A program made the position numbers and the translations under genes. The notes under the pieces were generated by a model. That model was not told the DNA's origin. It saw only the letters and a list, made by a program, of their open reading frames with translations, and searched no databases. A DNA stretch of 64,000 nucleotides from Pseudomonas sp. IAC-BECa141 (GTDB lineage Bacteria; Pseudomonadota; Gammaproteobacteria; Pseudomonadales; Pseudomonadaceae): assembly GCF_020544405.1 (NCBI RefSeq), contig NZ_CP065410.1, positions 2,108,001-2,172,000 on the forward strand, in the 5' to 3' direction. Shown in pieces: positions 10,601-33,843 of this stretch; within the stretch, counting starts at the first letter, position 1, and each line of letters begins with the position of its first letter.

Positions 10601-13600
10601 GCTGACCCCCAACGGCAAGCTTGATCGCAAGGCGCTGCCCAAACCTGACGCAGTGCTGGAGCAGCACACCTATCTGGCACCGGGCAACGACAACGAACGG
10701 CAATTGTGCGAGATCTGGCAAGCCGTGCTCGGGCTGGAACAGGTGGGCGTCACGGATAACTTCTTTGCCCTTGGCGGCGATTCGATCATCTCCATCCAGG
10801 TGGTCAGCCGTGCACGTCAGGCCGGCCTGCGCATCACTCCCAAGGATTTGTTCCAGTACCAGACCGTGCAAGGTCTGGCCCGGGTCGCCCAGCGTGGCGA
10901 CGCGGCGTTCGGCATCGAGCAGGGCGCCGTCACCGGCAGCACGCCGTTGCTGCCGTTCCAGCAACGATTCTTCGAGCTGGCGATTCCCGAGCGTCAGCGC
11001 TGGAACCAGTCGTTGCTGCTGAAACCTTCGCAAGCGGTCGACGCCGATGTCCTCGAGCACGCCTTGCAGGCACTGGTTGCGCATCACGACGTCTTGCGCC
11101 TGAGCTTCAGCGAAGGTGCCGAAGGCTGGACGGCCACGCACCGCGCGCCGGATAACCGGCCGTTGCTGCAACAGGCGAGCGTGCAGCACGCCGACGAAAT
11201 CGAAGCGGTGTGCGACGCCGCGCAAGGCAGCCTCGATTTGCAAGACGGCCCGCTGTTGCGCGCCGTGCTGCTGAATGTGGCCGATGGCAGCCAGCGCCTG
11301 TTGCTGGCAATCCATCACCTGGTGGTCGACGGTGTGTCCTGGCGCGTGTTGCTGGAAGATTTGCAGAACGCTTGCGAGCAGCTGCAGAACGGCCAGACAG
11401 TCAAACTGCCGGCCAAGACCAGCCCGTTCAAGGACTGGGCGCAACGCCTGCAAACGTTCGCCGGTGGTGAGCTGCAACAGGAACTGACGTGGTGGGCCGG
11501 CCAGTTGGGCGAAGCGCCCTCCGACCTGCCTTGCGACAACCCTGCGGCAAGCTTGCAGAACCGTCACGCGGTGAGCGTGGAAACCCGCCTGAATGCGGAT
11601 CAGACCCGCCAACTGTTGCAGCAGGCGCCCGCCGCCTATCGCACGCAGATCAACGATCTGCTGCTGACGGCGCTGGCGCGGGTGATCTGCCGCTGGACCG
11701 GTCAGGCCTCGACCCTGATCCAGCTCGAAGGTCATGGCCGTGAAGCGCTGTTCGACGACATCGACCTGAGCCGCACCGTGGGTTGGTTCACCAGCCTGTT
11801 CCCGGTGCGTCTGACCCCGGCCATGGGCCTGGCCGACTCGCTGAAGGCGGTCAAGGAACAGCTGCGTGGCGTACCGAACAAGGGCCTGGGTTTTGGTGCC
11901 CTGCGTTACCTGGGCGACGAACACGCGCGGCAGACGCTCGCCGCGCAGCCGGTGCCGCGCATTACCTTCAACTACCTGGGGCAGTTCGACAGCCAGTTCG
12001 ACGAGGCCGCGCTGTTCGTGCCCGCCAGTGAAAGCACCGGCCGCGAGCAGAGTTCGCTGGCACCGTTGGCCAACTGGCTGGACATCAACGGCAAGGTCTA
12101 TGGCGGTGAGCTCAGCCTCAGCTGGTCGTTCAGCCACGAAATGTTCAATCAGGCGACGATCCAGCGTCTGGCTGACGACTATGCACAAGAGCTCAATGCG
12201 CTGATCGCCCATTGCTGTGAGGCGCACAACCGCGGTGTGACGCCGTCGGACTTCCCGCTGGCTGACCTGACTCAGGCGCAGCTCGATACGCTGATCACCG
12301 ATCCGCCATCGGTGGACAACATCTATCCGCTGTCGCCGATGCAACAGGGCATGCTGTTCCACACCCTGTACGAACAGGGTTCGGGCGATTACATCAACCA
12401 GATGCGGGTGTCGGTGGAAGGGCTTGATGTCGAGCGTTTCCGTCAGGCCTGGCAAGCGGCGCTGGAGGCCCATGACATTCTGCGCACGCGGTTTGTCTGG
12501 GGCGGGGCGCAGGCTCAGCCGCTGCAAATCGTCGAACGCTCGGCCACGCTGCCGTTCACCGTTCACGATTGGCGCGGCCAACCGGACGAAGCGCTGGATG
12601 CGCTGGCCGAAGCCGAGCGCAACCGTCCGTTCGATCTGAACGAGGTGCCACTGTTGCGCCTGGTGGTGGTACGCACCGCGCAAGACCGCCATGAACTGCT
12701 CTACACCAGCCACCACATTTTGCTCGACGGCTGGAGCAACTCGCAGTTGCTCGGTGAAGTGCTGCAACGCTATGCCGGGCAGGTGCCTGCAGCGCCCATT
12801 GGCCGCTACAGCGATTACATCGCCTGGCTGCAGCGTCAGGACAGTCAGCTCAGCGAGCAATTCTGGCTCGAGCGTCTGGCTCAATTTGATGAGCCAACCC
12901 GCCTGGCCCAGGGACTGGCTGATCGGTCGACGAGCGCCGAGGGCGGTACCGGGCACTATCAGCAGTGGATCGACGCCACGGGCACATTGCGCTTGAGCGA
13001 GTTTGCCCGTCAGCAAAAAGTCACCCTCAACACCCTGGTGCAAGCGGCGTGGCTGTTGCTGTTGCAACGTTACACCGGGCAATCGACCGTGGCCTTCGGC
13101 GCCACTGTGTCGGGGCGTCCGGCCAATCTGCCGGGGGTCGAGCAGCAGGTCGGCCTGTTCATCAACACCCTGCCGGTGATTGCCCGTCCAGAGCCGCAAC
13201 TGACGGTCAGCCTGTGGCTGCAAACCGTGCAGGAACTCAACGTTGGCCTGCGTGATTTCGAACACACGCCACTGGCCGATATCCAGCGCTGGTCGGGGCA
13301 GGGCAGCGATGGCCTGTTCGACAACCTGTTGGTGTTCGAGAACTACCCGATCTCCGAAGCACTGGAGCAAGGCTCGTCGCTGGGCCTGAATTTCGGCGCG
13401 GTCGACACCCGTGAACAAACCAACTTCCCGCTGACGGTCGGGGTCAACCTCGGCGAAACCCTGTCGGTGCATTACAGCTATGCCGCCGCCCGTTTCAGCG
13501 CGCAGGCGATTGTGCGTTTGCACGCGCAACTGGCTTCGTTGCTGGAGCAGTTCGTGCAGTCGGCGAATGCGCGTCTCGGCGCGTTGACCCTGCTCAGCGG

Positions 13601-16600
13601 TGAAGAACAGCGCCGTCTGCAGGACAGCAATCGTGCGCAACCGTGCACGGATCCGTTGCTGGTGCATCAGCGCATCGCGGTGATCGCGGCGCAGCAGGCG
13701 CAACGGGAAGCCGTGCGTTGTGGCGATCAGGCGTTGACTTTCGCCGAGCTTGAAAGCCGGGCCAACCGCCTCGCGCATTTGCTGATCCATGAAGGCGTCG
13801 GGCCGGAAGTGCGTGTCGGCGTCGCCCTGCCGCGCAGCCCATCGATGCTGGTGGCCTTGCTTGCGGTGCTCAAGGCCGGCGGCGCCTATGTGCCACTGGA
13901 TGCCAGTTATCCGCGCGAGCGCCTGGCCTATCTGATTGAAGATTCGGGCATCGCGCTGTTGCTCAGCGATTCGCAACTGCGCCCGCGGTTGCCGCTGAGC
14001 ACCGGTTTGCGCGCACTGGATCTGGACACGTTGCCGACCGCCGAGTGGCCAGACGTGGCGCCGCAGGTCGAGGTGCAACCGCGAAACCTTGCTTACGTGA
14101 TTTACACCTCCGGTTCCACCGGCCAGCCCAAGGGTGTATGCGTGGAACACGGACCGCTGGCGATGCATTGCCAGGCGATCGGTCAGCGCTATGAAATGAC
14201 CCCGGACGATTGCGAGCTGCACTTCATGTCGTTCGCTTTCGACGGCGCTCATGAACGCTGGTTGACCCCGCTGACCCATGGCTCGCGGCTGTTGCTGCGC
14301 GATGACAGTCTGTGGAGTCCGGAGCAGACCTATGCCGCCATGCAACAGCACGGCGTGACGGTGGCGGCGTTCCCGCCGGTGTACTTGCAGCAATTGGCCG
14401 AGCACGCCGAACAGGTCGGCCAGCCGCCAGCGGTGCGCATCTACTGTTTCGGCGGCGATGCCGTGCCCAACGACAGTTTCGAGCGGGCGCGTGCGGCGCT
14501 GGCGCCGCAGCACATCATCAACGGTTACGGGCCGACCGAAACCGTGGTCACCCCGTTGATCTGGAAGGCCGGGCGCGGCGACGTGTGCGGCGCGGCCTAT
14601 GCGCCGATCGGTACGCGGATCGGCGACCGCAGCACCTGCGTGCTCAGTGCTGACCTCAACGCATTGCCACAGGGCGTGATGGGTGAGTTGTATCTGGGCG
14701 GCACCGGACTGGCCCGGGGTTATCTGGATCGTCCGGCGATGACCGCTGAACGCTTCGTACCCGATCCATTCGGGGCGCCGGGCAGTCGTCTGTACCGCAG
14801 CGGAGACCTGGTGCGTGAACGCGCCGATGGCGTGTTCGACTATCAGGGCCGCGTCGACAATCAGGTGAAAATCCGTGGTTTCCGCATCGAACTGGGCGAA
14901 ATCGAAGCGCGCCTGCTGGAGTTGAGCCGGGTGCGTGAAGCCGTGGTGCTGGCGCACACCGGGCCAAGCGGCAAGCAACTGGTGGCCTATCTGGTACCGA
15001 CGCAGCCGGTGGAGGAGGCACAACTGGGCGAATGGCGCGACAGCGTGCGCGACGCCCTCAAGGAGAGTCTGCCGGCGCACATGGTGCCGGCGCACTTGAT
15101 GGTGCTGGCGAACCTGCCGGTGACCCCGAACGGCAAACTGGACCGCAAGGCGCTGCCGGCACCGGACGCCAGCCTGATGCAGAACAGCTACGTGGCGCCG
15201 CGCAATGACATGGAGCAACGCATCGCCACGATCTGGGCCGATGTCCTGCGCCTCGAGCGGGTCAGCGCTACGGACAACTTCTTCGAACTGGGTGGTGATT
15301 CGATCATCTCGATTCAAGTGGTCGGCCGTGCGCGGCAGGCCGGTATCCAGTTCACGCCCAAGGATCTGTTCCAGCACCAGACCGTGCAGGCACTGGCGGC
15401 GGTCGCACAATCGGGCGGCACGGTGCTGAGCATCGATCAGGGGCCGGTCAGCGGGGCGACGCCGTTGTTGCCGTTCCAGCAATGGTTCTTCGCCAGCGAG
15501 ATCCCCGAGCGGCATCACTGGAACCAGTCGCTGCTGCTCAAACCGGCGATGACTCTGCATGCCGGGACCGTCGCGCAGGTGCTTCAGGCACTGGTTGCGC
15601 ATCACGATGCCTTGCGCCTGTCGTTCATTGAAACGACTGAAGGCTGGACCGCCACGCACCGCCCGCCCGAGCCTGTGCAGGAACTGCTCTGGCAGCGCAC
15701 GCTGACGGATTCGGCTGACATCGAAGGGATCTGTCAGCAGGCCCAGGGCAGTCTCGATCTGCTCGACGGGCCGCTGCTGCGCGGTGTGTTGTTCGATCTG
15801 CCGGATCACACTCAGCGCTTGATGCTGGTGGTGCATCACCTGGTGGTCGATGGTGTCTCGTGGCGGATCCTGCTGGAAGATCTGCAAACCGCATTCAGCC
15901 AGATCCAGGCCGGGCGCGAGGTCGCGTTGCCGGCCAAGACCAGCGCCTTCAAAGCCTGGGCCGAACGCTTGCAGGCACACACCGCCAGCCTCGATGACGA
16001 GCAGGCCTTCTGGCGTGAGCACTTGCGCGGGGCGACCGCCACTTTGCCGTGCGAACGTCCGGACGGCAGCCTGGAAAACCGCTACGCGCAAAGTGTGCAG
16101 ACGCGCCTTGCGCCGGAGCTGACCCGACAATTGTTGCAACAGGCCCCGGCGGCTTATCGCACGCAGGTCAACGACTTGCTGTTGACCGCACTGGCGCGGG
16201 TCATCAGTCGCTGGAACGGGCATGCTTCGGCACTGATTCAGCTGGAAGGTCATGGTCGTGAAGACCTGTTCGACGACATCGATCTGAGCCGCACCCTCGG
16301 CTGGTTCACCAGCGTGTTCCCGGTACACCTGACGCCGGCCAGCGGTTTCGCTGAATCGATCAAACAGATCAAGGAGCAACTGCGTGCGATTCCCCACAAG
16401 GGCATCGGTTTTGGCGCCTTGCGTTATCTGGGCGATGCCTCGGCGCGTGAGGCGCTGGCAGCGCTGCCTGTGCCCAAAATCACCTTCAACTACCTTGGCC
16501 AGTTCGATAGCCAGTTCGACGAAGCCGCGCTGTTCCTGCCGGCCGGCGAAAGTGCCGGCAGTGACCTCGGCGAACGGGCCCCGCTGGGCAACTGGCTGTC

Positions 16601-19600
16601 GGTCAACGGTCAGGTGTATGGCGGTGAACTGAGCCTGTCGTGGAGCTTCAGCGAGCAAATGTTCGACAGCGCGACCGTGCAGGCCGTGGCCGATGAATAC
16701 GGGCGTGAACTGACGGCGCTGATCGAACACTGCGTGACCCCGGGCAACCACGGCCTGACGCCGTCGGACTTCCCGCTGGCGGCGCTGGGCCAGGCACGTC
16801 TGGACGGTTTGCCAGTGCCGGTCGCGGACATCGAAGACATCTATCCGTTGTCGCCGATGCAGCAGGGCATGTTGTTCCACACCTTGTCCGATGATGGCGA
16901 CGATCTTTACGTCAACCAGCTCAACCTGTCGGTCGAAGGCCTCGATATCGAGCGCTTCCGTGCCGCGTGGGAATGCGTGGTGCAGCGTCACGAAATCCTG
17001 CGCACGTCGTTCCATTGGCAAGACAGCCAGGCGTCACCGGTGCAGGTTGTCCACCGTCAGGGCATTGTTGACCTGCAAGCGCTGGACACGCCGTTGGATG
17101 AGGCGCAACTCGCCGAGTTCGCCCGCCAGCAGCGGGTTCAGGGTTTCGAGCTGGATCGCATGCCGTTGCAACGCACGCGCCTGATTCGTCTGGACGCCGA
17201 CAAGTACCAGTTGATCTGGACCAGCCATCACATCCTGATGGACGGCTGGAGCAGTTCGCAGTTGTTCGGCGAGGTCCTGCAGCACTACGCCACCGGCCAG
17301 ATCGAGGGCGAGAGCGGTCGTTACCGCGACTTTATCGCGTGGTTGCAGCAGCAGGATTCGGCGCAACTCGAGCAGTTCTGGCGCGGCCACTTGCAGACAC
17401 TGGTGGAACCGACCGCGCTGAGCCAGGCGATGCACCCGCGTCACGAATCCACCGAGCATGGCCACCAGGCGTTGTACACCCGTTGGGATGCGCAGCAGAC
17501 CGCCTTGTTGCAGCAGCATTGCCGGGCTCAGGGCATTACCGCCAACACCTTGATTCAAGGCGCATGGTTGCTGTTGTTGCAGCGCTACACCGGTCAGCAC
17601 AGCGTGGCGTTCGGTGCCACCGTGGCCGGGCGCCCGGAAGGGTTGCCGAATGCCGGCAACATGCTGGGGCTGTTCATCAACACCTTGCCGGTGATCCAGA
17701 CCCTCGATCCGGCGCAGCCGCTGAATGCCTGGCTGAGCAGTCTGCAGGCCTATAACCTCGATCTGCGTGAACATGCTCACGCACCGCTGGCGGATATTCA
17801 GCGCTGGTCGGGGCAGGGCGGGCAAGCCTTGTTCGACAGCATCATCGTGTTCGAGAACTACCCGATCGACCAGCGTCTGGAACAGGCACCGGGCGGCCTG
17901 CGCTTCGGCGCCTCGGCGAGCCATGACGTGACCAACTTCCCGATGGACCTGGCGGTGCATCTGGGAGAAGAGTTCTCCATCGAGTACCTGTTCCTGCGTG
18001 ATCGTTTCAGTGTCGAAGCGGTCGAGCGGATCCGCCAGACCATGGAAGTGTTGCTGCACAGCATGATGCGGCAGCCGACGGAGCGTCTGGGCAACCTGCA
18101 GCGTCTGGCCGCGGCACAATGGCAGGCCTTGCAGCAGTGGGGCGCAGAACCGGCGGCGGTGCATCGGCGCGCGCTGTTGCCGGCGATGATTGCCGCGCAA
18201 CGCCCTGAGGCCATTGCCGCCGAATGTGGTGACGAGCAGTTGAGCTACGCGCAACTCGAGTGCCGTGCCAATCAGCTGGCGCATCATTTGATCGCCGCGG
18301 GTGCCGGTCCGGAAGTGCTGATCGGTGTCGCACTGGAACGTTCGCTCGACATGCTGGTGGCTCTGCTCGCCGTGTTCAAAAGCGGCGCTGCCTATGTGCC
18401 GCTGGACATCGACTATCCGGCCGATCGCCTGGCTTTCATGATCGAAGACTCCGGCATGCGTCAGATGATCAGCCGTGGCGCCGCCAGCCAGCGTTTGCCA
18501 TTGCCGGCGAACCTGCCATTGCTTGATCTCGATCTTTTCGACGGCAATCAGTACCCCGACACGGCCCCGCCAGTACAGACCTGTGATGACAGCCTCGCCT
18601 ACCTGATCTACACCTCGGGCTCCACCGGTTTGCCCAAAGGTGTGGCGGTGACCCACGGACCTCTGAGCATGCATTGCCAGGCAATCCGTGAGTTGTACGA
18701 GATGGATGCCGGCACGCGCGAATTGCACTTCATGTCGTTCGCGTTCGACGGCGCCCATGAACGCTGGCTGACCACCCTGGCCTTTGGCGGCACGCTGGTG
18801 CTGCGCGATCATGAACTGTGGACACCGGAGCAGACCAGCCACGCCTTGCTCAACCGTTCGATCGATATTGCCTGCTTCCCGCCGGCCTACCTCAAACAGG
18901 TGGCTGAGTATGTCGAGGCCAGCGGCATGGCCGTGCCGAAGGTGCGCATTTACTGCCTTGGGGGTGACGCGGTGCCGGAGCAGACCCTGGCGCAAGTGCG
19001 CCGCGTGTTGCAGCCGCAGTTCATCACCAACGGTTACGGCCCGACCGAAACCGTGGTCACGCCAATGCTCTGGAAAGCGCCGAACGATGAAGCCTGCGCT
19101 GCCGCCTATGCGCCGATCGGGCGAGTGGTCGGCCAACGCTCGCTGTGGGTACTGGACGACGATCTCAATCCGCTGCCACAGGACTTGTCCGGCCAGTTGT
19201 ATATCGGCGGCTACGGGGTTGCCCGTGGTTACCATGGCCGTGCGGCCATCACCGCCGAGCGCTTCGTGCCGGATCCGTTCGGGGCACCGGGCAGCCGTCT
19301 GTACCGCAGCGGCGACCTGGTGCGCCTGCGCCATGACGGCATCCTCGATTACGTCGGCCGCGCCGACCATCAAGTGAAGATTCGCGGTTTCCGCATCGAA
19401 CTGGGTGAAATCGAAGCCTGCCTGCGCGCTCAGGACGGTGTCACCGATGCCGTGGTCATCGCCCGTGACGGCGTCTCCGGCAAACAGTTGATCGGCTATG
19501 TGGTCAGCACCGACGACAACGCCGGCGAGCGTCTCAAGACCCTGTTGCGCGCACAGTTGCCCGAATACATGGTGCCGCTGCAGATCATGAGTCTGGCGCG

Positions 19601-21278
19601 CCTGCCGATCTCGCCGAACGGCAAACTGGACCGCAAGGCGCTGCCCGAGCCTGAGTTTTGCGCCGATCAATATCAGGCGCCGCGCAACGAGCAGGAAACG
19701 TGGCTGGCCGAGATCTGGGCCGATGTCCTGCAAGTGGAGCAGGTCGGCATCAGCGACAACTTCTTCGAGTTGGGCGGTGATTCGATTCTCAGCCTGCAAG
19801 TGATTTCCCGGGCGCGGAACCATCCGCAACTGAAACTGGACATCAAGCTGCGCGACCTGATGCGCTTCCAGACCATTGGCAACCTGTTCGACCAGCAAGC
19901 GGTCGCGCGCTCGAGCCAGACCGCCGACAGCAGTCATGTAGCGCAGGCGGGGGCGTTTGGTCTGTTGCCGATCCAGGAATGGTTCTTCGCCGAGGGGATG
20001 AGCGAACCGCATCATTTCAACCAGGCGATGATGCTGCGTTCGCGCCAGGCGCTGGATGCCCCGGCGCTGGAGCAGACGCTGCGGTTGATGCTGGCGCAGC
20101 ACGACTCATTGCGGCTGCGCTTCTATCAGGATCAGGGCCGCTGGTTGCAGCACTATCAAACGCTGCAGGACAGCTTGTGCATCGCCGGGCACAACCCGTT
20201 GCTGTGGCAGCGTGAGATCAGCGACATCGAGCAACTCGACGCACTGGTCAATGAAGCCCAGCGCAGCCTCAACCTGCTCGAAGGGCCACTGATGCGCGGC
20301 CTGCTGGTGAATCTGCCGGACGGCGAGGTGCGCTTGCTGTTGGTGGTGCATCACCTGGTGATCGATGCGGTGTCGTGGCGGGTGTTCCTGCAAGACCTGC
20401 AACTCGCGTACGAGGCGTTCAGCCAGGGTCGCGAGCCGCAACTGGCGCAGCGCACCAGCAGCTATCGCGCCTGGGCCGATGGCCTGGCGGCGCAGGTGCC
20501 GGCACTGGTCGGGCAAGAGCTGGATTACTGGCTCGGACAACTGGATCAGCCGGGCAAGGATCTGCCGTGTGACAACCCGCGCGGCAAGAACCTGGTGCGT
20601 TTTCGCGAAGAAACGTTCATGGGGCTCGACGCCACCCGCACCGGGCAACTGCTCAAACAGGCGCCGGCGGTGTACGGCACCCAGATCAACGATCTGCTGC
20701 TGACTGCCCTCGGTCGTGTGCTGTGTCGCTGGAGCGAGGCCGAGTCGGTGCTGGTGCAACTGGAAGGGCACGGTCGTGAGGACCTGGTCGAAGGGCTGGA
20801 TCTGAGCCGCACGCTTGGCTGGTTCACCACCATGTTCCCGGTGCGGCTGGCGCCGTTGGCGGAGCAGGATTTTGGCGCTTCGATCCTGGCGGTCCGCGAG
20901 CAGTTGGCTGCTGTGCCGCAGAAAGGCGTCGGCTACGGCGCGCTGCGCTACATGGCTGATGCGTCGGTGCAACAGCGTCTGGCGGCGTTGCCCCAGGCGC
21001 GGCTGACCTTCAACTATCTGGGGCAGTTCGACCAGACCTTTGACGAGCAGGCGATGTTGATGCCGGCGCACGAGCACATCGGCGATGTCTACAGCCTGGA
21101 TGCCAACCTCGGCAACTGGCTGGAAATTGTCGGTCAGGTGTTCGACGGCAAGCTGTCGATGCGTTGCATGTATAGCACCCGTCGCTTCCGCCCAAGCACC
21201 ATCGAGACCTTGATGCAGCAGTATCAGGCCGAGCTGGAAGCGCTGGTCGAGCATTGCCTGCAACAGTCGGCGGGTTGA
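7656..21278 (+). CDS. Pyoverdine side-chain NRPS, three C-A-T-E modules, no thioesterase
   Basis: This 4540-residue, three-module NRPS starts at an ATG preceded by GAGAGGACC, just after the previous NRPS. Module 1: C (HHIISDGWS near 175), A (near 505-1000, YTSGSTG near 655), T (LGGDS near 1043), E (HHLVVDG near 1220). Module 2: C (HHILLDGWS near 1686), A (YTSGSTG near 2150), T (near 2548), E (HHLVVDG near 2727). Module 3: C (HHILMDGWS near 3191), A (YTSGSTG near 3651), T (near 4042), E (HHLVIDA near 4232, EGHGRE present). Pockets read by hand are D-L-W-N-N-A-L-T-Y (probably Ala), D-G-E-A-C-G-G-V-T and D-G-E-C-C-G-G-V-T. The last two have an acidic residue at the third position, which suits a basic substrate (Lys, Orn or N5-hydroxy-Orn). 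The first C domain resembles LCL types, consistent with accepting L-Thr; the later two follow E domains. The protein ends about 310 residues after the HHLVIDA motif with no TE, which is odd for the NRPS next to fpvA (pvdD in P. aeruginosa ends in TE). Confidence 0.95.
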   Translation: MQQLIESVGALSPEKRKALAILLGKQGINLYGIAPIFRRAEGEPLLLSYAQERQWFLWQMEPDSAAYHIPTALRLRGALDMAVLQRSFDTLIERHESLRTGFARGDQDRAIQLIKAPFALQIEVRELEGEVDEPRLRAAIEAEIARPFDLEQDTLLRVCLLRLAPDDHVLVMVQHHIISDGWSMQVMVGELIELYAGFSQGAPATLAPLPIQYADFAQWQRSWMDAGERERQLSYWVEHLGSDPGVLELPADHPRPLVQSYRGARLDMQLDAALSKDLQDLARREGVTMFMLLLAAFQTLLHRYSGQDDIRIGVPIANRNRAETEGLIGFFVNTQVLRATLDSSMTFSALLAQARQSALGAQAHQDLPFEQLVEALAPERSLSRSPLFQVMFNHQSGARQARQAMQLPGLAVESVNWDSLTAQFDLTLETHESPEGVWASLIYATDLFEAASIERMGRHLQALLKGIVSDAQQRVGELPLLDASERQVLLHDWNPVDAPFASDLCIHQLIARQAAQTPNARAVTFAERHLTYAELEARANPLAHALIERGVGPEVRVGVAMQRSENLLVALLAVLKAGGVYVPLDPDYPADRVAYMLEDSRALCLLTERDVAASLATAAGTDVLLMDNVAEDFAAYPAHAPQTRVSADNLAYVIYTSGSTGKPKGVAIAHRNVLALIDWSQSVYSRDDIQGVLASTSVCFDLSVWELFVTLANGGSLIIARNALELPQLPARDQVRLINTVPSAIAALQRSGEIPPSVRIINLAGEPLKQSLVDTLYAQPTVEHVFDLYGPSEDTTYSTWTRRTAGGQPSIGRPLKHTASYVLDGELQPVPQGVAAELYLAGAGITRGYLARPALTAEKYLPNPFGAPGERFYRTGDLTRYQPDGNLQYVGRIDHQVKVRGFRIELGEIEARLLQQDTVRELAVLAQEGASGQQLVAYIVPSAALGNAEEQARLREVLKTALREHLPEYMVPAHWLFLEKLPLTPNGKLDRKALPKPDAVLEQHTYLAPGNDNERQLCEIWQAVLGLEQVGVTDNFFALGGDSIISIQVVSRARQAGLRITPKDLFQYQTVQGLARVAQRGDAAFGIEQGAVTGSTPLLPFQQRFFELAIPERQRWNQSLLLKPSQAVDADVLEHALQALVAHHDVLRLSFSEGAEGWTATHRAPDNRPLLQQASVQHADEIEAVCDAAQGSLDLQDGPLLRAVLLNVADGSQRLLLAIHHLVVDGVSWRVLLEDLQNACEQLQNGQTVKLPAKTSPFKDWAQRLQTFAGGELQQELTWWAGQLGEAPSDLPCDNPAASLQNRHAVSVETRLNADQTRQLLQQAPAAYRTQINDLLLTALARVICRWTGQASTLIQLEGHGREALFDDIDLSRTVGWFTSLFPVRLTPAMGLADSLKAVKEQLRGVPNKGLGFGALRYLGDEHARQTLAAQPVPRITFNYLGQFDSQFDEAALFVPASESTGREQSSLAPLANWLDINGKVYGGELSLSWSFSHEMFNQATIQRLADDYAQELNALIAHCCEAHNRGVTPSDFPLADLTQAQLDTLITDPPSVDNIYPLSPMQQGMLFHTLYEQGSGDYINQMRVSVEGLDVERFRQAWQAALEAHDILRTRFVWGGAQAQPLQIVERSATLPFTVHDWRGQPDEALDALAEAERNRPFDLNEVPLLRLVVVRTAQDRHELLYTSHHILLDGWSNSQLLGEVLQRYAGQVPAAPIGRYSDYIAWLQRQDSQLSEQFWLERLAQFDEPTRLAQGLADRSTSAEGGTGHYQQWIDATGTLRLSEFARQQKVTLNTLVQAAWLLLLQRYTGQSTVAFGATVSGRPANLPGVEQQVGLFINTLPVIARPEPQLTVSLWLQTVQELNVGLRDFEHTPLADIQRWSGQGSDGLFDNLLVFENYPISEALEQGSSLGLNFGAVDTREQTNFPLTVGVNLGETLSVHYSYAAARFSAQAIVRLHAQLASLLEQFVQSANARLGALTLLSGEEQRRLQDSNRAQPCTDPLLVHQRIAVIAAQQAQREAVRCGDQALTFAELESRANRLAHLLIHEGVGPEVRVGVALPRSPSMLVALLAVLKAGGAYVPLDASYPRERLAYLIEDSGIALLLSDSQLRPRLPLSTGLRALDLDTLPTAEWPDVAPQVEVQPRNLAYVIYTSGSTGQPKGVCVEHGPLAMHCQAIGQRYEMTPDDCELHFMSFAFDGAHERWLTPLTHGSRLLLRDDSLWSPEQTYAAMQQHGVTVAAFPPVYLQQLAEHAEQVGQPPAVRIYCFGGDAVPNDSFERARAALAPQHIINGYGPTETVVTPLIWKAGRGDVCGAAYAPIGTRIGDRSTCVLSADLNALPQGVMGELYLGGTGLARGYLDRPAMTAERFVPDPFGAPGSRLYRSGDLVRERADGVFDYQGRVDNQVKIRGFRIELGEIEARLLELSRVREAVVLAHTGPSGKQLVAYLVPTQPVEEAQLGEWRDSVRDALKESLPAHMVPAHLMVLANLPVTPNGKLDRKALPAPDASLMQNSYVAPRNDMEQRIATIWADVLRLERVSATDNFFELGGDSIISIQVVGRARQAGIQFTPKDLFQHQTVQALAAVAQSGGTVLSIDQGPVSGATPLLPFQQWFFASEIPERHHWNQSLLLKPAMTLHAGTVAQVLQALVAHHDALRLSFIETTEGWTATHRPPEPVQELLWQRTLTDSADIEGICQQAQGSLDLLDGPLLRGVLFDLPDHTQRLMLVVHHLVVDGVSWRILLEDLQTAFSQIQAGREVALPAKTSAFKAWAERLQAHTASLDDEQAFWREHLRGATATLPCERPDGSLENRYAQSVQTRLAPELTRQLLQQAPAAYRTQVNDLLLTALARVISRWNGHASALIQLEGHGREDLFDDIDLSRTLGWFTSVFPVHLTPASGFAESIKQIKEQLRAIPHKGIGFGALRYLGDASAREALAALPVPKITFNYLGQFDSQFDEAALFLPAGESAGSDLGERAPLGNWLSVNGQVYGGELSLSWSFSEQMFDSATVQAVADEYGRELTALIEHCVTPGNHGLTPSDFPLAALGQARLDGLPVPVADIEDIYPLSPMQQGMLFHTLSDDGDDLYVNQLNLSVEGLDIERFRAAWECVVQRHEILRTSFHWQDSQASPVQVVHRQGIVDLQALDTPLDEAQLAEFARQQRVQGFELDRMPLQRTRLIRLDADKYQLIWTSHHILMDGWSSSQLFGEVLQHYATGQIEGESGRYRDFIAWLQQQDSAQLEQFWRGHLQTLVEPTALSQAMHPRHESTEHGHQALYTRWDAQQTALLQQHCRAQGITANTLIQGAWLLLLQRYTGQHSVAFGATVAGRPEGLPNAGNMLGLFINTLPVIQTLDPAQPLNAWLSSLQAYNLDLREHAHAPLADIQRWSGQGGQALFDSIIVFENYPIDQRLEQAPGGLRFGASASHDVTNFPMDLAVHLGEEFSIEYLFLRDRFSVEAVERIRQTMEVLLHSMMRQPTERLGNLQRLAAAQWQALQQWGAEPAAVHRRALLPAMIAAQRPEAIAAECGDEQLSYAQLECRANQLAHHLIAAGAGPEVLIGVALERSLDMLVALLAVFKSGAAYVPLDIDYPADRLAFMIEDSGMRQMISRGAASQRLPLPANLPLLDLDLFDGNQYPDTAPPVQTCDDSLAYLIYTSGSTGLPKGVAVTHGPLSMHCQAIRELYEMDAGTRELHFMSFAFDGAHERWLTTLAFGGTLVLRDHELWTPEQTSHALLNRSIDIACFPPAYLKQVAEYVEASGMAVPKVRIYCLGGDAVPEQTLAQVRRVLQPQFITNGYGPTETVVTPMLWKAPNDEACAAAYAPIGRVVGQRSLWVLDDDLNPLPQDLSGQLYIGGYGVARGYHGRAAITAERFVPDPFGAPGSRLYRSGDLVRLRHDGILDYVGRADHQVKIRGFRIELGEIEACLRAQDGVTDAVVIARDGVSGKQLIGYVVSTDDNAGERLKTLLRAQLPEYMVPLQIMSLARLPISPNGKLDRKALPEPEFCADQYQAPRNEQETWLAEIWADVLQVEQVGISDNFFELGGDSILSLQVISRARNHPQLKLDIKLRDLMRFQTIGNLFDQQAVARSSQTADSSHVAQAGAFGLLPIQEWFFAEGMSEPHHFNQAMMLRSRQALDAPALEQTLRLMLAQHDSLRLRFYQDQGRWLQHYQTLQDSLCIAGHNPLLWQREISDIEQLDALVNEAQRSLNLLEGPLMRGLLVNLPDGEVRLLLVVHHLVIDAVSWRVFLQDLQLAYEAFSQGREPQLAQRTSSYRAWADGLAAQVPALVGQELDYWLGQLDQPGKDLPCDNPRGKNLVRFREETFMGLDATRTGQLLKQAPAVYGTQINDLLLTALGRVLCRWSEAESVLVQLEGHGREDLVEGLDLSRTLGWFTTMFPVRLAPLAEQDFGASILAVREQLAAVPQKGVGYGALRYMADASVQQRLAALPQARLTFNYLGQFDQTFDEQAMLMPAHEHIGDVYSLDANLGNWLEIVGQVFDGKLSMRCMYSTRRFRPSTIETLMQQYQAELEALVEHCLQQSAG

Positions 21279-21300
21279 GCCGGTCTTTAACTTTTTGAGA

Positions 21301-21329
21301 GGGCCGGTGCGCATTGTGCGCATCGGCCC
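21301..21329 (+). other. Strong hairpin between NRPS and esterase genes
   Basis: GGGCCGGTGCGCA pairs with TGCGCATCGGCCC across a TTG loop; the 13-bp stem has one G-T pair. It lies in the 63-base gap after the NRPS stop and ends 12 bases before the preferred ATG of the esterase. No T run follows, so it does not look like a classical intrinsic terminator. It may attenuate or insulate the esterase. Confidence 0.6.
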
Positions 21330-21341
21330 GGGATGGGGTGC

Positions 21342-22289
21342 ATGTCATTGAATTCGGAAGTAGCGGCGTTTCTTGATCTGGTCGAAGACAGTCGGAACGT
21401 TGCGTTTCACCAAGGGACACCCGAGCAGGCCCGGGAGGCGTTCGAGCAGTCCTCGCAACAGATGCGTTGGGAGGTGCCGGATGTCGAAGTGAGTGAGGTG
21501 CGACACCTTGCCCGCGACGGCGCCGAGCTGACCTTGCGGCTGTACCGTCCGTTGCACAAGGACGGTGTCTTGCCGGTGCTGCTGTTTTTGCACGGCGGTG
21601 GTTTCGTCGTCGGCAGCCTCGACTCCCACGACGGTATTTGCCGTGAGTTCTGCGCGCGCACACCGTGTGCGGTGCTGTCGGTGGGTTACCGCCGCGCGCC
21701 GGAACACAAATTCCCGGTGGCGTTGCACGATTGTGCCGATGCCCTGGATTGGCTGCGCGAACAGGCCGGCGAATTCGATCTCGATCTGTCGCGCCTGGTG
21801 TTTGGCGGCGACAGCGTCGGCGCCACGCTGGCGACCGTGCTGGCGCTTGAGGCGCGTGCGCCCGGCGCGCTGAAACCGTGCCTGCAATTGCTCTGCTACC
21901 CGGTGACCGACGCCTCGCAGCGCCGAGAGTCGATGGACTTGCTCGGTGAAGGCTACCTGCTGGAAAGCGAAACGCTGGAATGGTTCTACCAGCACTACGC
22001 CCGCAGCATCGAGGATCGCCGCGACTGGCGCTTCTCGCCACTGCTGAGCCCCGACCTCCAGGGCGCAGCCCCGGCCTACGTGGCGCTGGCCGGTTTCGAT
22101 CCGCTGGTCGATGAAGGCCGCGCCTACGCCGAGCGTCTGGCGGCGGCGGGCGGCTTGCTCGAATGCCGCGAGTTCGGCGGCCACGTGCATGACTTTTTAC
22201 GCATGCGCATGGTCACCGAAGAGGTCGAGGCGATCTATCAGGAACTGGTGAGCGTGCTGCGCACCGTGATGTATCCCGAAACGGTCTGA
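21342..22289 (+). CDS. HSL-family alpha/beta hydrolase (esterase) of the pyoverdine locus
   Basis: This 315-residue cytoplasmic-type hydrolase belongs to the hormone-sensitive-lipase/acetyl-esterase family. It has the oxyanion motif HGGGF near residue 86, the nucleophile elbow GDSVG near 152 (the usual form is GDSAG), a catalytic Asp in AGFDPLVDE near 250 and a His in GHVHDF near 281. It follows the NRPS gene by 63 bases on the same strand, so co-transcription is likely. Its substrate is not known from sequence. Because the upstream NRPS has no thioesterase domain, a role in release or hydrolysis of a pyoverdine intermediate is possible, but that is inference. An alternative ATG lies three codons upstream at 21333. 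I prefer 21342 because a GGGG stretch sits just ahead of it, but the choice is weak. Confidence 0.85.
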   Translation: MSLNSEVAAFLDLVEDSRNVAFHQGTPEQAREAFEQSSQQMRWEVPDVEVSEVRHLARDGAELTLRLYRPLHKDGVLPVLLFLHGGGFVVGSLDSHDGICREFCARTPCAVLSVGYRRAPEHKFPVALHDCADALDWLREQAGEFDLDLSRLVFGGDSVGATLATVLALEARAPGALKPCLQLLCYPVTDASQRRESMDLLGEGYLLESETLEWFYQHYARSIEDRRDWRFSPLLSPDLQGAAPAYVALAGFDPLVDEGRAYAERLAAAGGLLECREFGGHVHDFLRMRMVTEEVEAIYQELVSVLRTVMYPETV

Positions 22290-22551: not shown

Positions 22552-24978
22552 TCAGAACGTGTACTTGAAGCCGGTCATGATGTTGCGCGGGGCGCCGTAC
22601 ATGCCGTGGTCGCCGGCGTAGCTGAGGTATTCGCGGTCGAATACGTTGTTCAGGTTGACCGAGGCGCTGAGGTTTTTGCTGATGTCGTAGCGTGCCAGCA
22701 GGTTGGTGACGGCGTAGCTGCCTTGCTGGAAGGTATGCAGGTCGGCACCGGTCTTGCTCTGCCAGTTCACGCCGCCGCCGACGGTGACTTTGTCCAGAAT
22801 GCCCGGCAGGCGATAGCTGGTGAAGGTCTTGAGGCTGTGACGGGGCAGGGTGGTGACGATGCGGTTGTCATCGGCATCGGTGCTGACGGCATAGGCGTAA
22901 CCGGCAGACGCTTGCCAGCCTTCGGCCAGTTCGCCATCGAGGGTGAATTCAGCACCTTTGGTGGTGGTGCCCTGTTCGGACTTGTAGGTGTTGCCGCCCG
23001 GGGTGTCGATCCAGATCGCCAGGTTGTCCTGCTCGATCTTGAACAGCGCGAAGCTGGAGTTCAGCTTGCCATCGAAGTGGCTGCCCTTGACGCCGACTTC
23101 GTAGCCGGTGCCTTCCATCGGATCCAGAGGCTTGTTGTTGATGTCGCGAACCCAGGACGATTGCGGGTTGAAGATCTTGGTGTAGCTGGCATACAGCGAC
23201 CAGGTGTCGTTGACGTCGTAGACCACACCCGCGTAAGGAATGTAGACACCGGTTTCCGATTCTTTGGTCTTGGTTTCTGCTGCGCCGTACGGCTTGTCTT
23301 CGGTGTCACGATGCCAGTCGACCACGCGGCTGCCGAGCAGGATGCTCAGGTCATCGGTGGCGCGCAGCCGGGTGGCCAGGTAAGCGGCGTATTGCGTTTC
23401 ATCGACGGTGGATTTGCCGGTGACGTTGAATTCGGGTTTGACCGAGTTACCGTTCCAGTTCAGCAGGTTGTCGATGGCACCGGCCGGGGAATTGGAGTAG
23501 TCGGTTTTCCAGCCACCGTAGCTCGGCACGTTTTCGTAGTAGTTGGACAGGGTCACACCGGCGATCAGCTCGTGCTCGCGTCCCAGCAGGCCGAACGGGC
23601 CGGTCAGGTAGGCGTCGATGTTGTTCTGGCGCGGGGTGCCGGAGAAGCGTACCGGCAGTTGGGTGGTGCCGCTGCCGTCGGGGTTCAGGGTGCCGTTGAC
23701 GTAGTTGAAGACCTCGTCGAATTTGTTTTCGGAGTGAGTCAGTTCGACCTTGCCGCTCCAGCCATTGCCGAACTGTTGTTCGATCGAGGTGAAGAAGCTG
23801 GTTTGTTCGTGGTCGTTGTAAGACCAGGTCTGCGCCGAGTTCAGGGAACGCTTGAGGTTGGTGCGCGAACCGTCGGTGAAGCGCGTCGGCAGGCCCGAAC
23901 GCATTGGCGAATCGACGTCGGTGCGCTGGTAGCTGAAGCCCATGGTCAGCAAGGTGTCTTCGCTCAGGTCGAATTCGGTGATGCCATACATCAGCTGCGA
24001 ATCCTGCTTGTAGCGGTCAATCCAGGACTGTTCGGTCTTGAAGTCGCCGACCAGACGGCCACGGATGTTGCCGGTTTCGGTCAACGGCCCGGAGACATCG
24101 AAACCGGTGCCGTAGCGATCCCAGTTGCCGGCCTCGGCGGTGACGCTGGCCTGAGCCTCGGCGGTCGGGCGCTTGCGGATCAGGTTGATGGTGGCCGAAG
24201 GGCTGCCCAGGCCGCTGATCAGGCCGGTGGCGCCACGCACCACTTCCACCCGGTCGTACATCGCCATGCTCTGGGTGTAGTTGTCCATGCGCTTGACGGT
24301 CGGCACGCCGTCGATTTCGAAGTTCTGGATCTCGAAACCACGGGAGAAGTAGCCGTCGGACTCGGCGCCCTGACCGTCACGCAGCACGATGATGCCCGGA
24401 GTGGCGTCGAGGGTATCGCTGAGGTTGGTCAGGTGCTGGTCGTCCAGGCGCTGACGGGTCATGACGGTCAGTGACTGCGGGGTTTCCTTGGGAGTCAGGT
24501 TAAGGCGCGTCGAACTGCTGGACGAGTACGTGGTGTACAGCCCGGACCCTTCAGTGGTCGAGCCCGGCGCCTTGCCGGAAATCGATACCGCGCCCAGCTC
24601 CAGCGCGTTTCCCGCGTCTGCACCGGTGGCTGGCACCAGCGAAACCGAGTTGCCGGTCAGTTGATAGGTCATGCCGCTCCCCAGCAGCAAGTTGTCCAGC
24701 GCCTGTTTCGGTTCCAGGTGACCGGATACCGCGGTCGAGTTCAGGCCAGCCAGGGATTCCGGGCTGTAGAGAATCTGCAGATTGGCTTGTTGCCCAAGCT
24801 GTTGCAGTGCCCGGGACAGCGGTTGCGCAGGGATGTTGACGTCGACCGGCGTCGCTTGAACCTGGGTGCTGCCCAATAGCATCAGCGTCAGCAGAGCACC
24901 TGACAGCATTGCGCCACGCGGATTGCGGCGGGAGATGGCCTCGGCCAGAGGGGTGCGGGACAACTTTAAGGCTTGCAT
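22552..24978 (-). CDS. fpvA: Ferripyoverdine TonB-dependent receptor with signalling domain
   Basis: This 808-residue outer-membrane receptor imports ferric pyoverdine with TonB energy. An N-terminal signal segment (about residues 22-42) is followed by an STN signalling domain (about 45-115, starting VDVNIPAQPLSRALQQLG), a plug domain (about 160-275, with TPGIIVLRDGQGAESDGYF and VEVVRGATGL) and a 22-strand-type barrel ending in the canonical aromatic residue (KYTF). The STN domain shows that it takes part in cell-surface signalling through an FpvR-type anti-sigma factor to FpvI and PvdS. It lies downstream of pvdE on the same strand but with a 154-base gap holding a Fur-like site, so it probably has its own promoter. 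No TAAAT-N16-CGT box lies upstream, which fits FpvI-dependent transcription. AGGAG lies 13 bases before the ATG, slightly far. Confidence 0.95.
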   Translation of the reverse strand: MQALKLSRTPLAEAISRRNPRGAMLSGALLTLMLLGSTQVQATPVDVNIPAQPLSRALQQLGQQANLQILYSPESLAGLNSTAVSGHLEPKQALDNLLLGSGMTYQLTGNSVSLVPATGADAGNALELGAVSISGKAPGSTTEGSGLYTTYSSSSSTRLNLTPKETPQSLTVMTRQRLDDQHLTNLSDTLDATPGIIVLRDGQGAESDGYFSRGFEIQNFEIDGVPTVKRMDNYTQSMAMYDRVEVVRGATGLISGLGSPSATINLIRKRPTAEAQASVTAEAGNWDRYGTGFDVSGPLTETGNIRGRLVGDFKTEQSWIDRYKQDSQLMYGITEFDLSEDTLLTMGFSYQRTDVDSPMRSGLPTRFTDGSRTNLKRSLNSAQTWSYNDHEQTSFFTSIEQQFGNGWSGKVELTHSENKFDEVFNYVNGTLNPDGSGTTQLPVRFSGTPRQNNIDAYLTGPFGLLGREHELIAGVTLSNYYENVPSYGGWKTDYSNSPAGAIDNLLNWNGNSVKPEFNVTGKSTVDETQYAAYLATRLRATDDLSILLGSRVVDWHRDTEDKPYGAAETKTKESETGVYIPYAGVVYDVNDTWSLYASYTKIFNPQSSWVRDINNKPLDPMEGTGYEVGVKGSHFDGKLNSSFALFKIEQDNLAIWIDTPGGNTYKSEQGTTTKGAEFTLDGELAEGWQASAGYAYAVSTDADDNRIVTTLPRHSLKTFTSYRLPGILDKVTVGGGVNWQSKTGADLHTFQQGSYAVTNLLARYDISKNLSASVNLNNVFDREYLSYAGDHGMYGAPRNIMTGFKYTF

Positions 24979-25132: not shown

Positions 25133-26782
25133 TCAGGCCGGGTTGAGCGCGGTTTTGACTTTGCCGGCATCCATGCGCACCAACTGGTCGGCGACATCGA
25201 AATAACGGTCATCGTGGGAGATCACGATGATGGTCTTGCCCAGTCGTTTGAGGTCGGGCAGCAGCTCGGTGTAGAAGATCCGGCGGAAGGTCGGGTCCTG
25301 ATCCGCGGCCCATTCGTCGAACACCAGCACCGGGCGCTCCTCCAGCCACGCATTGACCAGCGCCAGACGCTTGCGCTGCCCGGTGGACAGGTCAGTGGTG
25401 GTGAAGCTGCCGTCCTGCACACTGACCTTGTGGGCGATTTCCAGGCGTTGCAGGTATTTGTTGGCATCGTCGGGAATGTGCGTATCGCCTTGCACCACGT
25501 CATCGAACAGGTAGTAGTCGGCAAAGACCGTGGTGAACAACTGGCGGTAATCATCGCGGGTGAGGGCGGTCACGCATTCGCCGTTGAGGCGGATTTCTCC
25601 CTGCTGCGGCGGATACAGACCCAGCAGCAGTTTGATCAGGGTGGTCTTGCCGCAGCCGTTCTCGCCGACGATGAAGACGATGTCGCCTTGTTCGATCTTC
25701 AGATTCACCGGCCCCAGCGTGAACGGCTTGGCCTCGCCCACGGCCGGGAAGGCGTAGCGCACGTCTTTGAGTTCCAGGCTCTGCACCGGCTCGGCTTTCT
25801 GGCCCTGATCGCTGAGCAGCAGATGCGGCTCGGGCGAGGAGAATTGCGCCGACAGTTCAGCGATGCGGCGGAAGGCGATCTGCGCGCGGCTGACCACCGG
25901 CAAGGTGCCGACCAGGTGTTCCAGCGGACCTTTCATGTACAGCAGCACCAGAACAAAACCGCTCATCACGGTTTTGTCAGCGCTGGGCCAGAACGATTGC
26001 AGGGCCAGCGCCAGACCGATGACCACAAAGAACAGCATCGAGCCGAAACTCTTGGCAATCACGAACGTGTTGATCGATTTGATCTGGGTCTTGCAGATGA
26101 AATCGGCAGTGCCCTTGATGCCGCTGTTGAACATGCGCTGGCGGCGCGGGCGATGAATGCGCAGTTCCTTGGCCCCTTCGGCAATCGCGTTGTAGTGCTT
26201 TTGCAGTTCGTCTTCAGCGTCACGGGCGGCGAAGAAGCCCTTGATCCCGCGACCCTGGGCGAAGTACTGGATGCCAGTGCCGATCAGGATCGCCACAACC
26301 ATGATCAGGAACATTGGCCACGACAGCATCGCCAGGTAGCCCATGCAACCGAGGGTGACGGTCAGCGAGATGGCCAGGGGGGCGAAGGCGAAGGCGAAGT
26401 CGCTGATGGTGTCAACGTCATGCGTCAGCACCGGAATCAGGCGATGGCTGCGATAGCGTTCAATCTGCTCGATCGGTGCCGACAGCACTTTCTCACCCAG
26501 CTGTTTGCGCAGGGTGGCGATGATGTGCTGGCCGACATAGTTGGTGCCGATGTCGGAACAGATCGAGCTGAGCAGTGCCAGCACGCACAGGCCGCCGAAC
26601 AGCGCGACTACGCCTTGGGTCAGACCGGATTCGGAGTGCAGCGCATTATTGATGGTGGCCAGCAGGACCGTGACACTCAGGCCACCGACCATACCCAGAA
26701 TGACCGACAGTGCGACGACGAGCCGAAAAGGTTTGAGTAGGGTGAACAATTCATGAATTGCACCGCGCGTAGGCTGGGTCAT
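25133..26782 (-). CDS. pvdE: Pyoverdine precursor ABC exporter, inner membrane
   Basis: This 549-residue protein fuses an ABC transmembrane domain and an ATPase domain. It moves the acylated ferribactin precursor from cytoplasm to periplasm, as established for PvdE. Membrane segments occupy roughly residues 18-300. The nucleotide-binding domain has Walker A GENGCGKTT near 379, the signature LSTGQRKRL near 465 and Walker B VLVFDEWAADQDP near 485. The length equals that of known PvdE. A PvdS box 43 bases upstream gives it its own promoter. In P. aeruginosa pvdF lies between pvdE and pvdO; here only 118 bases separate them and no pvdF is present. Confidence 0.95.
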   Translation of the reverse strand: MTQPTRGAIHELFTLLKPFRLVVALSVILGMVGGLSVTVLLATINNALHSESGLTQGVVALFGGLCVLALLSSICSDIGTNYVGQHIIATLRKQLGEKVLSAPIEQIERYRSHRLIPVLTHDVDTISDFAFAFAPLAISLTVTLGCMGYLAMLSWPMFLIMVVAILIGTGIQYFAQGRGIKGFFAARDAEDELQKHYNAIAEGAKELRIHRPRRQRMFNSGIKGTADFICKTQIKSINTFVIAKSFGSMLFFVVIGLALALQSFWPSADKTVMSGFVLVLLYMKGPLEHLVGTLPVVSRAQIAFRRIAELSAQFSSPEPHLLLSDQGQKAEPVQSLELKDVRYAFPAVGEAKPFTLGPVNLKIEQGDIVFIVGENGCGKTTLIKLLLGLYPPQQGEIRLNGECVTALTRDDYRQLFTTVFADYYLFDDVVQGDTHIPDDANKYLQRLEIAHKVSVQDGSFTTTDLSTGQRKRLALVNAWLEERPVLVFDEWAADQDPTFRRIFYTELLPDLKRLGKTIIVISHDDRYFDVADQLVRMDAGKVKTALNPA

Positions 26783-27824: not shown

Positions 27825-29105
27825 TCACAACTGTTTGTCGAGTACGGCCATGAAACGCTCGATGTCGTTTTCGCTGTTCAGCAGGCCGGGCGCAATGCGG
27901 ATCACCGGGCCGACGTCGCGTTCCACTGCGTCACACACCACGCGGTTTTGCATGAGCCGGGCGGCGACCTGATCGCAGTCGCGATCCTTGATCCGGAAGA
28001 AGGTGAAACCGGCGGACAGATCGGTGCTGCGGGGTGTCACCAGTTCAATCGAGCGGTGTTCCAGCAAGCGGTTCTTGGCGTAGGTGTTGAGTTCGTGAAT
28101 GCGCGTTTGCACCTCGCGCTTGCCCAGCGACAAATGCAGCTTGAACGCTTCGTCCAGCGCCCAGCGGTGTTCGAAACTGTGATACCCGCCGGGGGTCATG
28201 ATGGTCGAGAACGTGGTGGCTTCAGAGAAGGTCGGGATGGTCGGGGTGACGTCCTTGAGTTCGCTGGAACGTGCGCAAATGATCCCGGTGCCACGGGGGC
28301 CGAACATCCACTTGTGGGTGCCGGCGATAAAGAAGTCGCAGTGCATGTCGGGGAAGTCGAGGTCGTCGACACCGAAACCATGCACGCCGTCGACGACGTA
28401 CAGGATGCGATCCTTTTCCTCGCGCTGGCGATTGTGCCGGTCCACCAGTTTGCCGATCTCGCCGATCGGCAGTTTCACGCCGCTGCCCGATTGCACCCAG
28501 GTCATGCCCAGTACGCGGGTTTCGGGGCGAATGCCCTGGTCGATACGGGTCAGTATTTCGTCGACGGACGCCTTTGCGCTGCTGTCGAACAACTTCAGTT
28601 TGCGCACCTTTACGCCATCTTTCTGTTGGCGATAACCCAGCGTGTAGTGGGTTGAGTAGTGCTCGTGTTCGGTGGTGAGAACTTCCTGATCGGCACGCAC
28701 ATGGATGCCGCCATAGATCAGCGCCAGACCTTCGGTGGTGCTGCCGGTGAGTGCGATCTGTTCGGGCTTGGCCTTGAGGTAGCGACCGGCCCATTCGCGC
28801 ACGGCTTGCTCGCGTTTTTCGGTTTCACCCAGATCCCAGTCCATCGCTCGTCCGGGATTGCGGTCGAGGGTCACTCGATAGCGTTCGATGGCTTCGCGTA
28901 CCGGGCGCGGATGGGATGTCACGAGGAAGTTGGCGAAATGCAGATAATCCGGATCCTGATCGAACAGCTGGCGCAATCGGTCCCATTTGTTCCCGGCGAG
29001 CGGTTGTGGGTTGGCGGCGCGGGCCGGCAGGTTGATGGCAGCGCCCAGGGGCAGGCCGGCGGCAAGGATGCCGGCCTGCTTGAGGAAAGAACGACGGTTG
29101 GTCAT
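27825..29105 (-). CDS. pvdN: Periplasmic PLP-dependent pyoverdine-modifying enzyme
   Basis: This 426-residue enzyme has a twin-arginine signal (NRRSFLKQAGILAAG, residues 3-17) and a class-V aminotransferase/cysteine-desulfurase fold. The PLP-binding lysine is in AGTHKWMFGPRGTG near residue 268. PvdN is known to act on the N-terminal glutamate of periplasmic pyoverdine, giving the succinamide side chain. The gap to pvdM is 27 bases, so the two are in one operon. The Tat signal fits folding with cofactor before export. Confidence 0.94.
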   Translation of the reverse strand: MTNRRSFLKQAGILAAGLPLGAAINLPARAANPQPLAGNKWDRLRQLFDQDPDYLHFANFLVTSHPRPVREAIERYRVTLDRNPGRAMDWDLGETEKREQAVREWAGRYLKAKPEQIALTGSTTEGLALIYGGIHVRADQEVLTTEHEHYSTHYTLGYRQQKDGVKVRKLKLFDSSAKASVDEILTRIDQGIRPETRVLGMTWVQSGSGVKLPIGEIGKLVDRHNRQREEKDRILYVVDGVHGFGVDDLDFPDMHCDFFIAGTHKWMFGPRGTGIICARSSELKDVTPTIPTFSEATTFSTIMTPGGYHSFEHRWALDEAFKLHLSLGKREVQTRIHELNTYAKNRLLEHRSIELVTPRSTDLSAGFTFFRIKDRDCDQVAARLMQNRVVCDAVERDVGPVIRIAPGLLNSENDIERFMAVLDKQL

Positions 29106-33836: not shown

Positions 33837-33843
33837 AGATCGA

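Follow-up and report, generated by a model that had tools for sequence, protein, structure and literature searches.

How does a pyoverdine peptide leave an assembly line whose last synthetase has no thioesterase (TE)? The question is raised by a stretch of 64,000 nucleotides (the window) from the genome of Pseudomonas sp. IAC-BECa141, which consists of one contig of 6.22 Mb; window coordinates are genome coordinates minus 2108000. The window encodes a nonribosomal peptide synthetase (NRPS), here termed NRPS2, that ends in an epimerisation (E) domain and is followed by the gene for an esterase of the hormone-sensitive lipase (HSL) type. The explanation that we favour, with a probability of roughly 0.6, is that NRPS2 releases its chain by esterase-dependent closure of a cyclic hydroxyornithine (cOHOrn); the pyoverdine product, the ring closure and the reaction of the esterase are what we infer from the sequences. 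The final module of NRPS2 would hold (D-)N5-hydroxyornithine on its carrier domain, the side-chain hydroxylamine nitrogen would attack the thioester, closing cOHOrn and freeing the peptide, and the HSL-type esterase would be the dedicated trans-acting enzyme for this ring-forming release. The elements concerned are located in the window as follows:

3..7643, forward strand: 3' portion of NRPS1, whose complete gene spans G000:C1:2100083-2115643 (5186 aa, without TE)
7656..21278, forward strand: NRPS2, 4540 aa, three C-A-T-E modules (condensation, adenylation, carrier and epimerisation domains), without TE; from open reading frame, Pfam, motifs and A-domain codes
16833..18131, forward strand: last-module C domain with HHILMDGWS, as in C domains that follow an E domain
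18186..19745 (limits approximate), forward strand: A domain of the last module, code DGECCGGVT
19755..19802, forward strand: carrier (T) domain motif DNFFELGGDSILSLQV of the last module
19959..21269, forward strand: terminal epimerisation domain (HHLVIDA, EGHGRE), the last Condensation-family match
21301..21329, forward strand: hairpin between NRPS2 and the esterase gene
21333..22289 (likely start 21342), forward strand: HSL-type esterase (Abhydrolase_3) with HGGG, GDSVG and Ser161-Asp256-His286

The original prediction, made from the letters of this stretch, had stated that the 4540-residue synthetase stops right after an E domain, and open reading frame, Pfam matches and motif positions bear this out. 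NRPS2 contains six Condensation-family, three AMP-binding and three PP-binding stretches, the last Condensation-family match ending two codons short of the stop codon, with HHLVIDA at 20349-20369 and EGHGRE at 20763-20780. The modules of NRPS1 are C-A-T-E, C-A-T, C-A-T-E and C-A-T, with a T domain at the end, and PvdL is encoded away from the window (G000:C1:4281042-4294181, 4379 aa). PvdL and peptide NRPSs encoded beside pvdE and a receptor gene, as in canonical pyoverdine synthetases, are thus present, but the C-terminal TE on the last NRPS is absent. Annotation of all pyoverdine NRPSs for a TE, the check suggested together with the prediction, gave no Thioesterase (PF00975) match in NRPS2, NRPS1 or PvdL in a Pfam scan of the whole genome, which supports the claim that release must take a different route.

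The genome contains 20 Condensation-family matches spread over six proteins. In the lines examined, C domains following an E motif carry L at the fourth position of HHxxxDGW in 115/115 cases, and first C domains carry V or I there in 37/38, first meaning first seen within a frame, many frames being cut at the locus edge. Because the first C domains of all six NRPS proteins of this genome have V or I, a type not found after E, NRPS2 is very probably the last pyoverdine synthetase. The motif excludes partners and gives no proof of order, since C domains without a detected preceding E motif carry L in 46/79 cases. The A-domain codes of NRPS2, at positions set by anchors, read in order DLWTNALTT, DGEACGGVT and DGECCGGVT, the latter two of which we take to be of the hydroxyornithine type. 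The product of NRPS2 should end in D-(acyl)hydroxyornithine followed by D-hydroxyornithine, and the hydroxyornithine-type code of the last A domain leads us to expect a cyclic D-hydroxyornithine at the C-terminus of this strain's pyoverdine. A published table contains many pyoverdines with a cOHOrn end (PMC4219678), and a pseudobactin is entered with D-OH-Orn in the table of a review (PMC10628113).

The esterase gene had been placed 63 bases downstream of NRPS2, which corresponds to its second ATG (21342); the first ATG (21333) lies 54 bases past the NRPS2 stop codon, and the second is favoured because the alignment with most relatives begins at residue 3 or 4. The protein has the HGGG and G-D-S-x-G motifs, the Asp and His of the triad and an Abhydrolase_3 match above the Pfam cut-off, its solved relatives include EH1AB1, Est8 and EST2, and it falls below the cut-off of every NCBIfam model matched. 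Ser, Asp and His are aligned in 82/83 of the esterases collected. The hairpin that precedes the gene is strong (-32.9 kcal/mol for 21279-21345, z -3.0), has no T run behind it and could set the level of esterase expression; with regard to a terminator between NRPS2 and the esterase gene, terminator-like sites numbered 2 against 2.0 expected by chance.

To follow the esterase across genomes, an even draw of 198 other genomes of the genus and a family-wide sample of 148 genomes were used, esterase counts excluding the window's own genome, with the gene for the PvdE-like ABC exporter (pvdE) as marker of pyoverdine loci. The cut-offs, set by eye after the lists had been viewed, were 55% identity for pvdE (next match 41%) and 44% identity or 233 bits for the esterase (next matches at most 206 bits). 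At 44% identity or more, esterase relatives were found in 82/198 genus genomes, and pvdE in 140/198; the esterase is present in 82/140 genomes with pvdE vs. 0/58 genomes without it. Final modules were read in stretches taken around the esterase in all 82 genomes; for the 58 genomes with pvdE that lack the esterase, the stretches were taken around pvdE. A final code of the form DGE[AC]CGG[VI]T was found in 82/82 esterase genomes vs. 0/51 readable esterase-less ones (49 read by script plus G102 and G174, read as Thr-type in the same analysis); the Fisher p of 3e-37 for code by esterase treats related species as independent and is hence too small. Seven of the 58 esterase-less genomes were unreadable and could hold exceptions (G061, G076, G089, G092, G130, G149 and G176). 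The distribution relative to pvdE and to the final code rules out a chance neighbour, and on these counts we class the esterase as a pyoverdine gene.

Its position is largely constant. In 74/82 genomes the esterase gene comes immediately after the NRPS end (gap -26 to 259 bases), 25 of these lines being E-ended and 49 TE-ended, and in G116 it lies 812 bases behind a TE end. Next to pvdN or pvdE rather than an NRPS it is found in 6/82 genomes, the pvdN-adjacent arrangement being seen in some P. putida-type genomes, and in G002 it sits at a contig edge; in these seven genomes the final modules are located elsewhere, end in a TE and carry the same code. G144 (L086) departs from the usual site behind the last NRPS, the gene following pvdE immediately and in the same orientation.

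By line end, the 82 esterase genomes comprise 57 TE-ended and 25 E-ended lines, the latter making up 25/133 readable lines of the genus sample. The link implied in the original prediction, that the esterase is there because the TE is missing, therefore fails, and a simple substitute for a lost TE is ruled out. Judged by code and line end, the esterase goes with the terminal residue and not with TE loss: it tracks a terminal hydroxyornithine-type module, E-ended lines constituting a subset of the lines with such a module. In the esterase tree, a weakly supported branch (48) separates the 26 E-linked esterases from the rest, and 25 of the 26 group together at support 97. Self-cyclisation of a D-hydroxyornithine and a trans-acting esterase had been offered as separate alternatives; in view of the hydroxyornithine-type last code, and of its occurrence in all esterase lines and none of the readable esterase-less ones, they are probably two halves of one mechanism.

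Several genomes call for individual mention. Possible counter-examples are esterase-less, TE-ended lines with near-hydroxyornithine codes, i.e., DGEVCGGVT (G181), DGECTGGIT (G045, G077) and DGEGSGGVT (G071). G076, an assembly of 650 contigs, encodes a TE close to that of esterase-bearing lines, and no esterase match was found in it; for G122, the line was chosen from two TE loci and may be a non-pyoverdine one. The pvdE-linked NRPS frames L123, L124 and L125 (G061, G092 and G149) have neither TE nor esterase and end in E-C in G061 and G149 and in E-C-T in G092. They may be a further type of release without TE, or the lines may go on in another protein. The last A domain detected in G149, which stands outside the readable count, has the code DGEACGGIT.

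What the esterase would do is suggested by a second gene. The ACETYLTRANSFERASE candidate of this genome is a GNAT protein (Pfam PF13523) adjoining pvdL, which we label PvdY-like from its Pfam family and its place; among NCBIfam models it matches just aminoglycoside acetyltransferases, far below cut-off. GNAT matches at E 1e-40 occur in 82/82 esterase genomes vs. 27/58 esterase-less pvdE genomes, and closer matches (at least 61% identity, a few of which, such as those in G116 and G050, span just about 200 residues) in 81/82 vs. 18/58. In the family sample, pvdE and the GNAT gene are both present in 30/30 esterase genomes, 28 of them from six other genera, and the GNAT gene in 4/12 pvdE genomes without esterase, four of these 12 also belonging to the genus sample. 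Since relatives are also encoded in 13 genomes of the genus that lack pvdE (G028, G118 and G154 among them), the GNAT protein probably serves other siderophores too. In P. aeruginosa type II pyoverdine, the acetyltransferase PvdYII is held responsible for the terminal cyclic hydroxyornithine, and acetylation is thought to precede cyclisation, according to reviews (PMC6206403; PMC9569983). The genome of P. capeferrum WCS358, whose line is TE-ended, has both the esterase and the GNAT gene, and the pyoverdine of this strain is listed as cOHOrn-ended and without any acyl-hydroxyornithine (PMC4219678). If an acetyl group is used in WCS358, something must remove it, and an esterase is an obvious candidate.

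For the reaction of the esterase we tentatively propose protection and de-protection, leaning to it slightly over a direct acyl transfer. The acetyltransferase encoded beside pvdL would acetylate the terminal hydroxyornithine, the transient acetyl group would block early cyclisation, and the esterase would strip it at the end only, whereupon the freed hydroxylamine would close the ring and release the chain. The assembly line would thus be ended by de-acetylation and not by a thioesterase, and the TE would have become dispensable and, in one lineage, given way to a specialised terminal E domain. In the direct transfer, a rather unlikely course, the peptide would pass from the carrier domain to the esterase serine, and the acyl-enzyme would then be attacked by the terminal hydroxylamine without an acetyl step. 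The intact Ser-Asp-His triad and the usual position directly behind the NRPS end fit such a reaction, and the same logic has been proposed for AmcB and DafK, which belong to TE-less actinomycete siderophore lines ending in hydroxyornithine (PMC10683483; PMC12305651). Direct transfer offers, however, no reason for an esterase in the 57 TE-bearing lines nor for an acetyltransferase in all 82 genomes, whereas de-protection would account both for the retention of the esterase in lines with a TE and for the occurrence of an acetyltransferase in each of the esterase genomes searched.

Some points weigh against esterase-dependent closure as a whole. The TE retained in 57/82 esterase lines shows a GWSLGG-type motif where it was read; the A-code positions follow an assumed numbering; the genomes are related and one TE/E exchange suffices on the trees, so that the counts are not independent events; and the kasichelin and nocobactin lines suggest that lactam closure may need no such enzyme. 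All evidence that links the esterase to release is association.

A spontaneous reaction, in which the epimerised hydroxyornithine cyclises unaided and the esterase serves this residue in some other way, for instance by removing chains that have stalled or closed wrongly, is unlikely. Formation of a six-membered ring by a side-chain hydroxylamine is chemically easy. The TE-less, E-ended lines of kasichelin and nocobactin point in the same direction, the kasichelin cluster being described without an AmcB homologue (PMC12305651). Against this, the strict association of esterase and code calls for a function that is needed for the terminal residue.

Matches to PF00975 number seven in the genome, none of them within a pyoverdine synthetase: one is a stand-alone gene immediately preceding NRPS1, two belong to a separate NRPS/polyketide synthase (PKS) cluster about 430 kb away (about 2556-2579 kb), and four weaker ones lie in frames of 262-382 aa. 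That the first of these, a PvdG-like TE and the best match of the genome (6e-42), releases the chain is improbable. According to a review, interposon mutagenesis of pvdG abolished pyoverdine in P. aeruginosa, and PvdG is discussed there as a trans thioesterase (PMC6206403). In that species, however, PvdG coexists with the TE domain of PvdD and is thus no sign of a TE-less line.

That the terminal E domain is itself the cyclising domain, E-like with a changed task, is more improbable still. In its favour, the 26 terminal E domains (that of the window and 25 others) split from 52 internal ones at support 100, as they do when eight terminal E domains of the family sample are added and the long branch of G120 is removed (33 vs. 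42 internal, support 100); both are quick trees with long branches, on which the terminal E domains constitute a single lineage, distinct from the internal ones. In addition, the G of HHxxxDG, which is A in NRPS2, is replaced by A or T in 19/26 terminal vs. 0/31 internal E domains of the genus. This replacement is found in just 1/8 terminal E domains of the family sample and is ruled out as a general mark of such domains. Furthermore, HHxxxD and EGHGRE are retained in 25/26, and TE-ended lines have the same esterase without a terminal E domain. The best solved relatives of the NRPS2 domain are PvdL, bacitracin synthase 3 and E-domain chains of tyrocidine and gramicidin synthetases, and by motifs and relatives it is an epimerisation domain. 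The exception among the 26, G120 (L058), has a terminal E domain that looks degenerate (HHLAMDLISW, EGHGRE lost), and its esterase and hydroxyornithine-type final code are retained.

The third option of the original prediction, that a TE-bearing NRPS from elsewhere in the genome works last, is scarcely credible and, after all Condensation-family matches had been listed and typed, is rejected as far as sequence allows: a C-A-T-TE protein exists (L011:14694-18806), but it is encoded in the separate NRPS/PKS cluster and carries a TubC_N docking domain, and its C domain reads HHIIADGWS, without the L that all C domains after E motifs have. That cluster (L011:5689 to L012:9668; G000:C1 about 2555.7-2579.7 kb) further encodes an NRPS with a nitroreductase-type domain, a ketosynthase/ketoreductase/TE hybrid protein and a TauD-type oxygenase.

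Beyond the esterase gene, the window continues with further pyoverdine genes:

22552..24978, reverse strand: TonB-dependent receptor, FpvA-like, with plug and STN domains
25133..26782, reverse strand: PvdE-like ABC exporter, 549 aa
26901..27794, reverse strand: PvdO (NCBIfam NF051459, above cut-off)
27825..29105, reverse strand: PvdN (NCBIfam NF051467, above cut-off)

The original prediction had referred to the NRPS next to fpvA in P. aeruginosa; the same neighbourhood holds here, but the receptor gene is on the opposite strand and convergent with the esterase gene. Adjoining the pvd genes at 32433-36990 on the reverse strand are genes for an outer membrane efflux protein, a MacB-type ABC transporter and a membrane-fusion protein, which we take to resemble the PvdRT-OpmQ exporter.

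If esterase-dependent closure is correct, a large share of pyoverdine lines would be released through an enzyme on which, with regard to pyoverdines, the sources available yielded no discussion, the esterase gene would mark a cyclic hydroxyornithine end in a genome in a simple way, and the presence of the acetyltransferase in strains that make no acyl-hydroxyornithine would have an explanation open to test. E-ended pyoverdine lines are not rare. The pyoverdine literature searched, as far as its text was available, yielded no description of an esterase for cOHOrn or of E-ended lines; in a large mining study, the TE is taken as end marker and cyclic and acylated hydroxyornithine are stated to be indistinguishable (PMC11444679).

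Compared with the P. aeruginosa-type synthetase, the locus represents the same pathway, with PvdL first and a receptor gene beside the last NRPS, but the former ends in the TE of PvdD and NRPS2 in an E domain with an esterase behind it. With type II pyoverdine it would share the terminal cyclic hydroxyornithine, for which an acetyltransferase is held responsible in that system; no esterase is mentioned in the passages available on it (PMC6206403; PMC9569983), and the GNAT protein is likened to PvdYII by label. The esterase has the fold family and motifs of HSL-type esterases (Abhydrolase_3, LipP1-like), from which it is set apart in that its relatives of at least 44% identity are confined, in the genus sample, to pvdE genomes. 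The final C-A-T-E module of NRPS2 resembles those of nocobactin and kasichelin, whose products end in a terminal lactam: NbtE, the last nocobactin NRPS, is C-A-T-E and yields a lactam derived from D-lysine (PMC7413640), and the TE-less, E-ended kasichelin line yields a hydroxyornithine lactam (PMC12305651). They are, however, other siderophores, nocobactin using lysine and the kasichelin cluster, as described, lacking an AmcB homologue. That a separate hydrolase releases siderophore lines lacking a TE is a proposal already in print. For cahuitamycin and coelichelin, release is described as occurring in trans by hydrolysis (PMC4757757), and the stand-alone hydrolases AmcB (amychelin) and DafK (chlorodactyloferrin) are proposed to cyclise and release (PMC10683483; PMC12305651). 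The latter systems are close in kind by description: they share with NRPS2 a TE-less last module, a C-terminal hydroxyornithine (here by code only, under its usual reading) and a separate alpha/beta hydrolase encoded in the cluster. AmcB and DafK stem from actinomycetes, whereas the lines described here are pyoverdine lines of Pseudomonadaceae, whose hydrolase is an HSL/Abhydrolase_3 esterase that also accompanies TE-ended lines.

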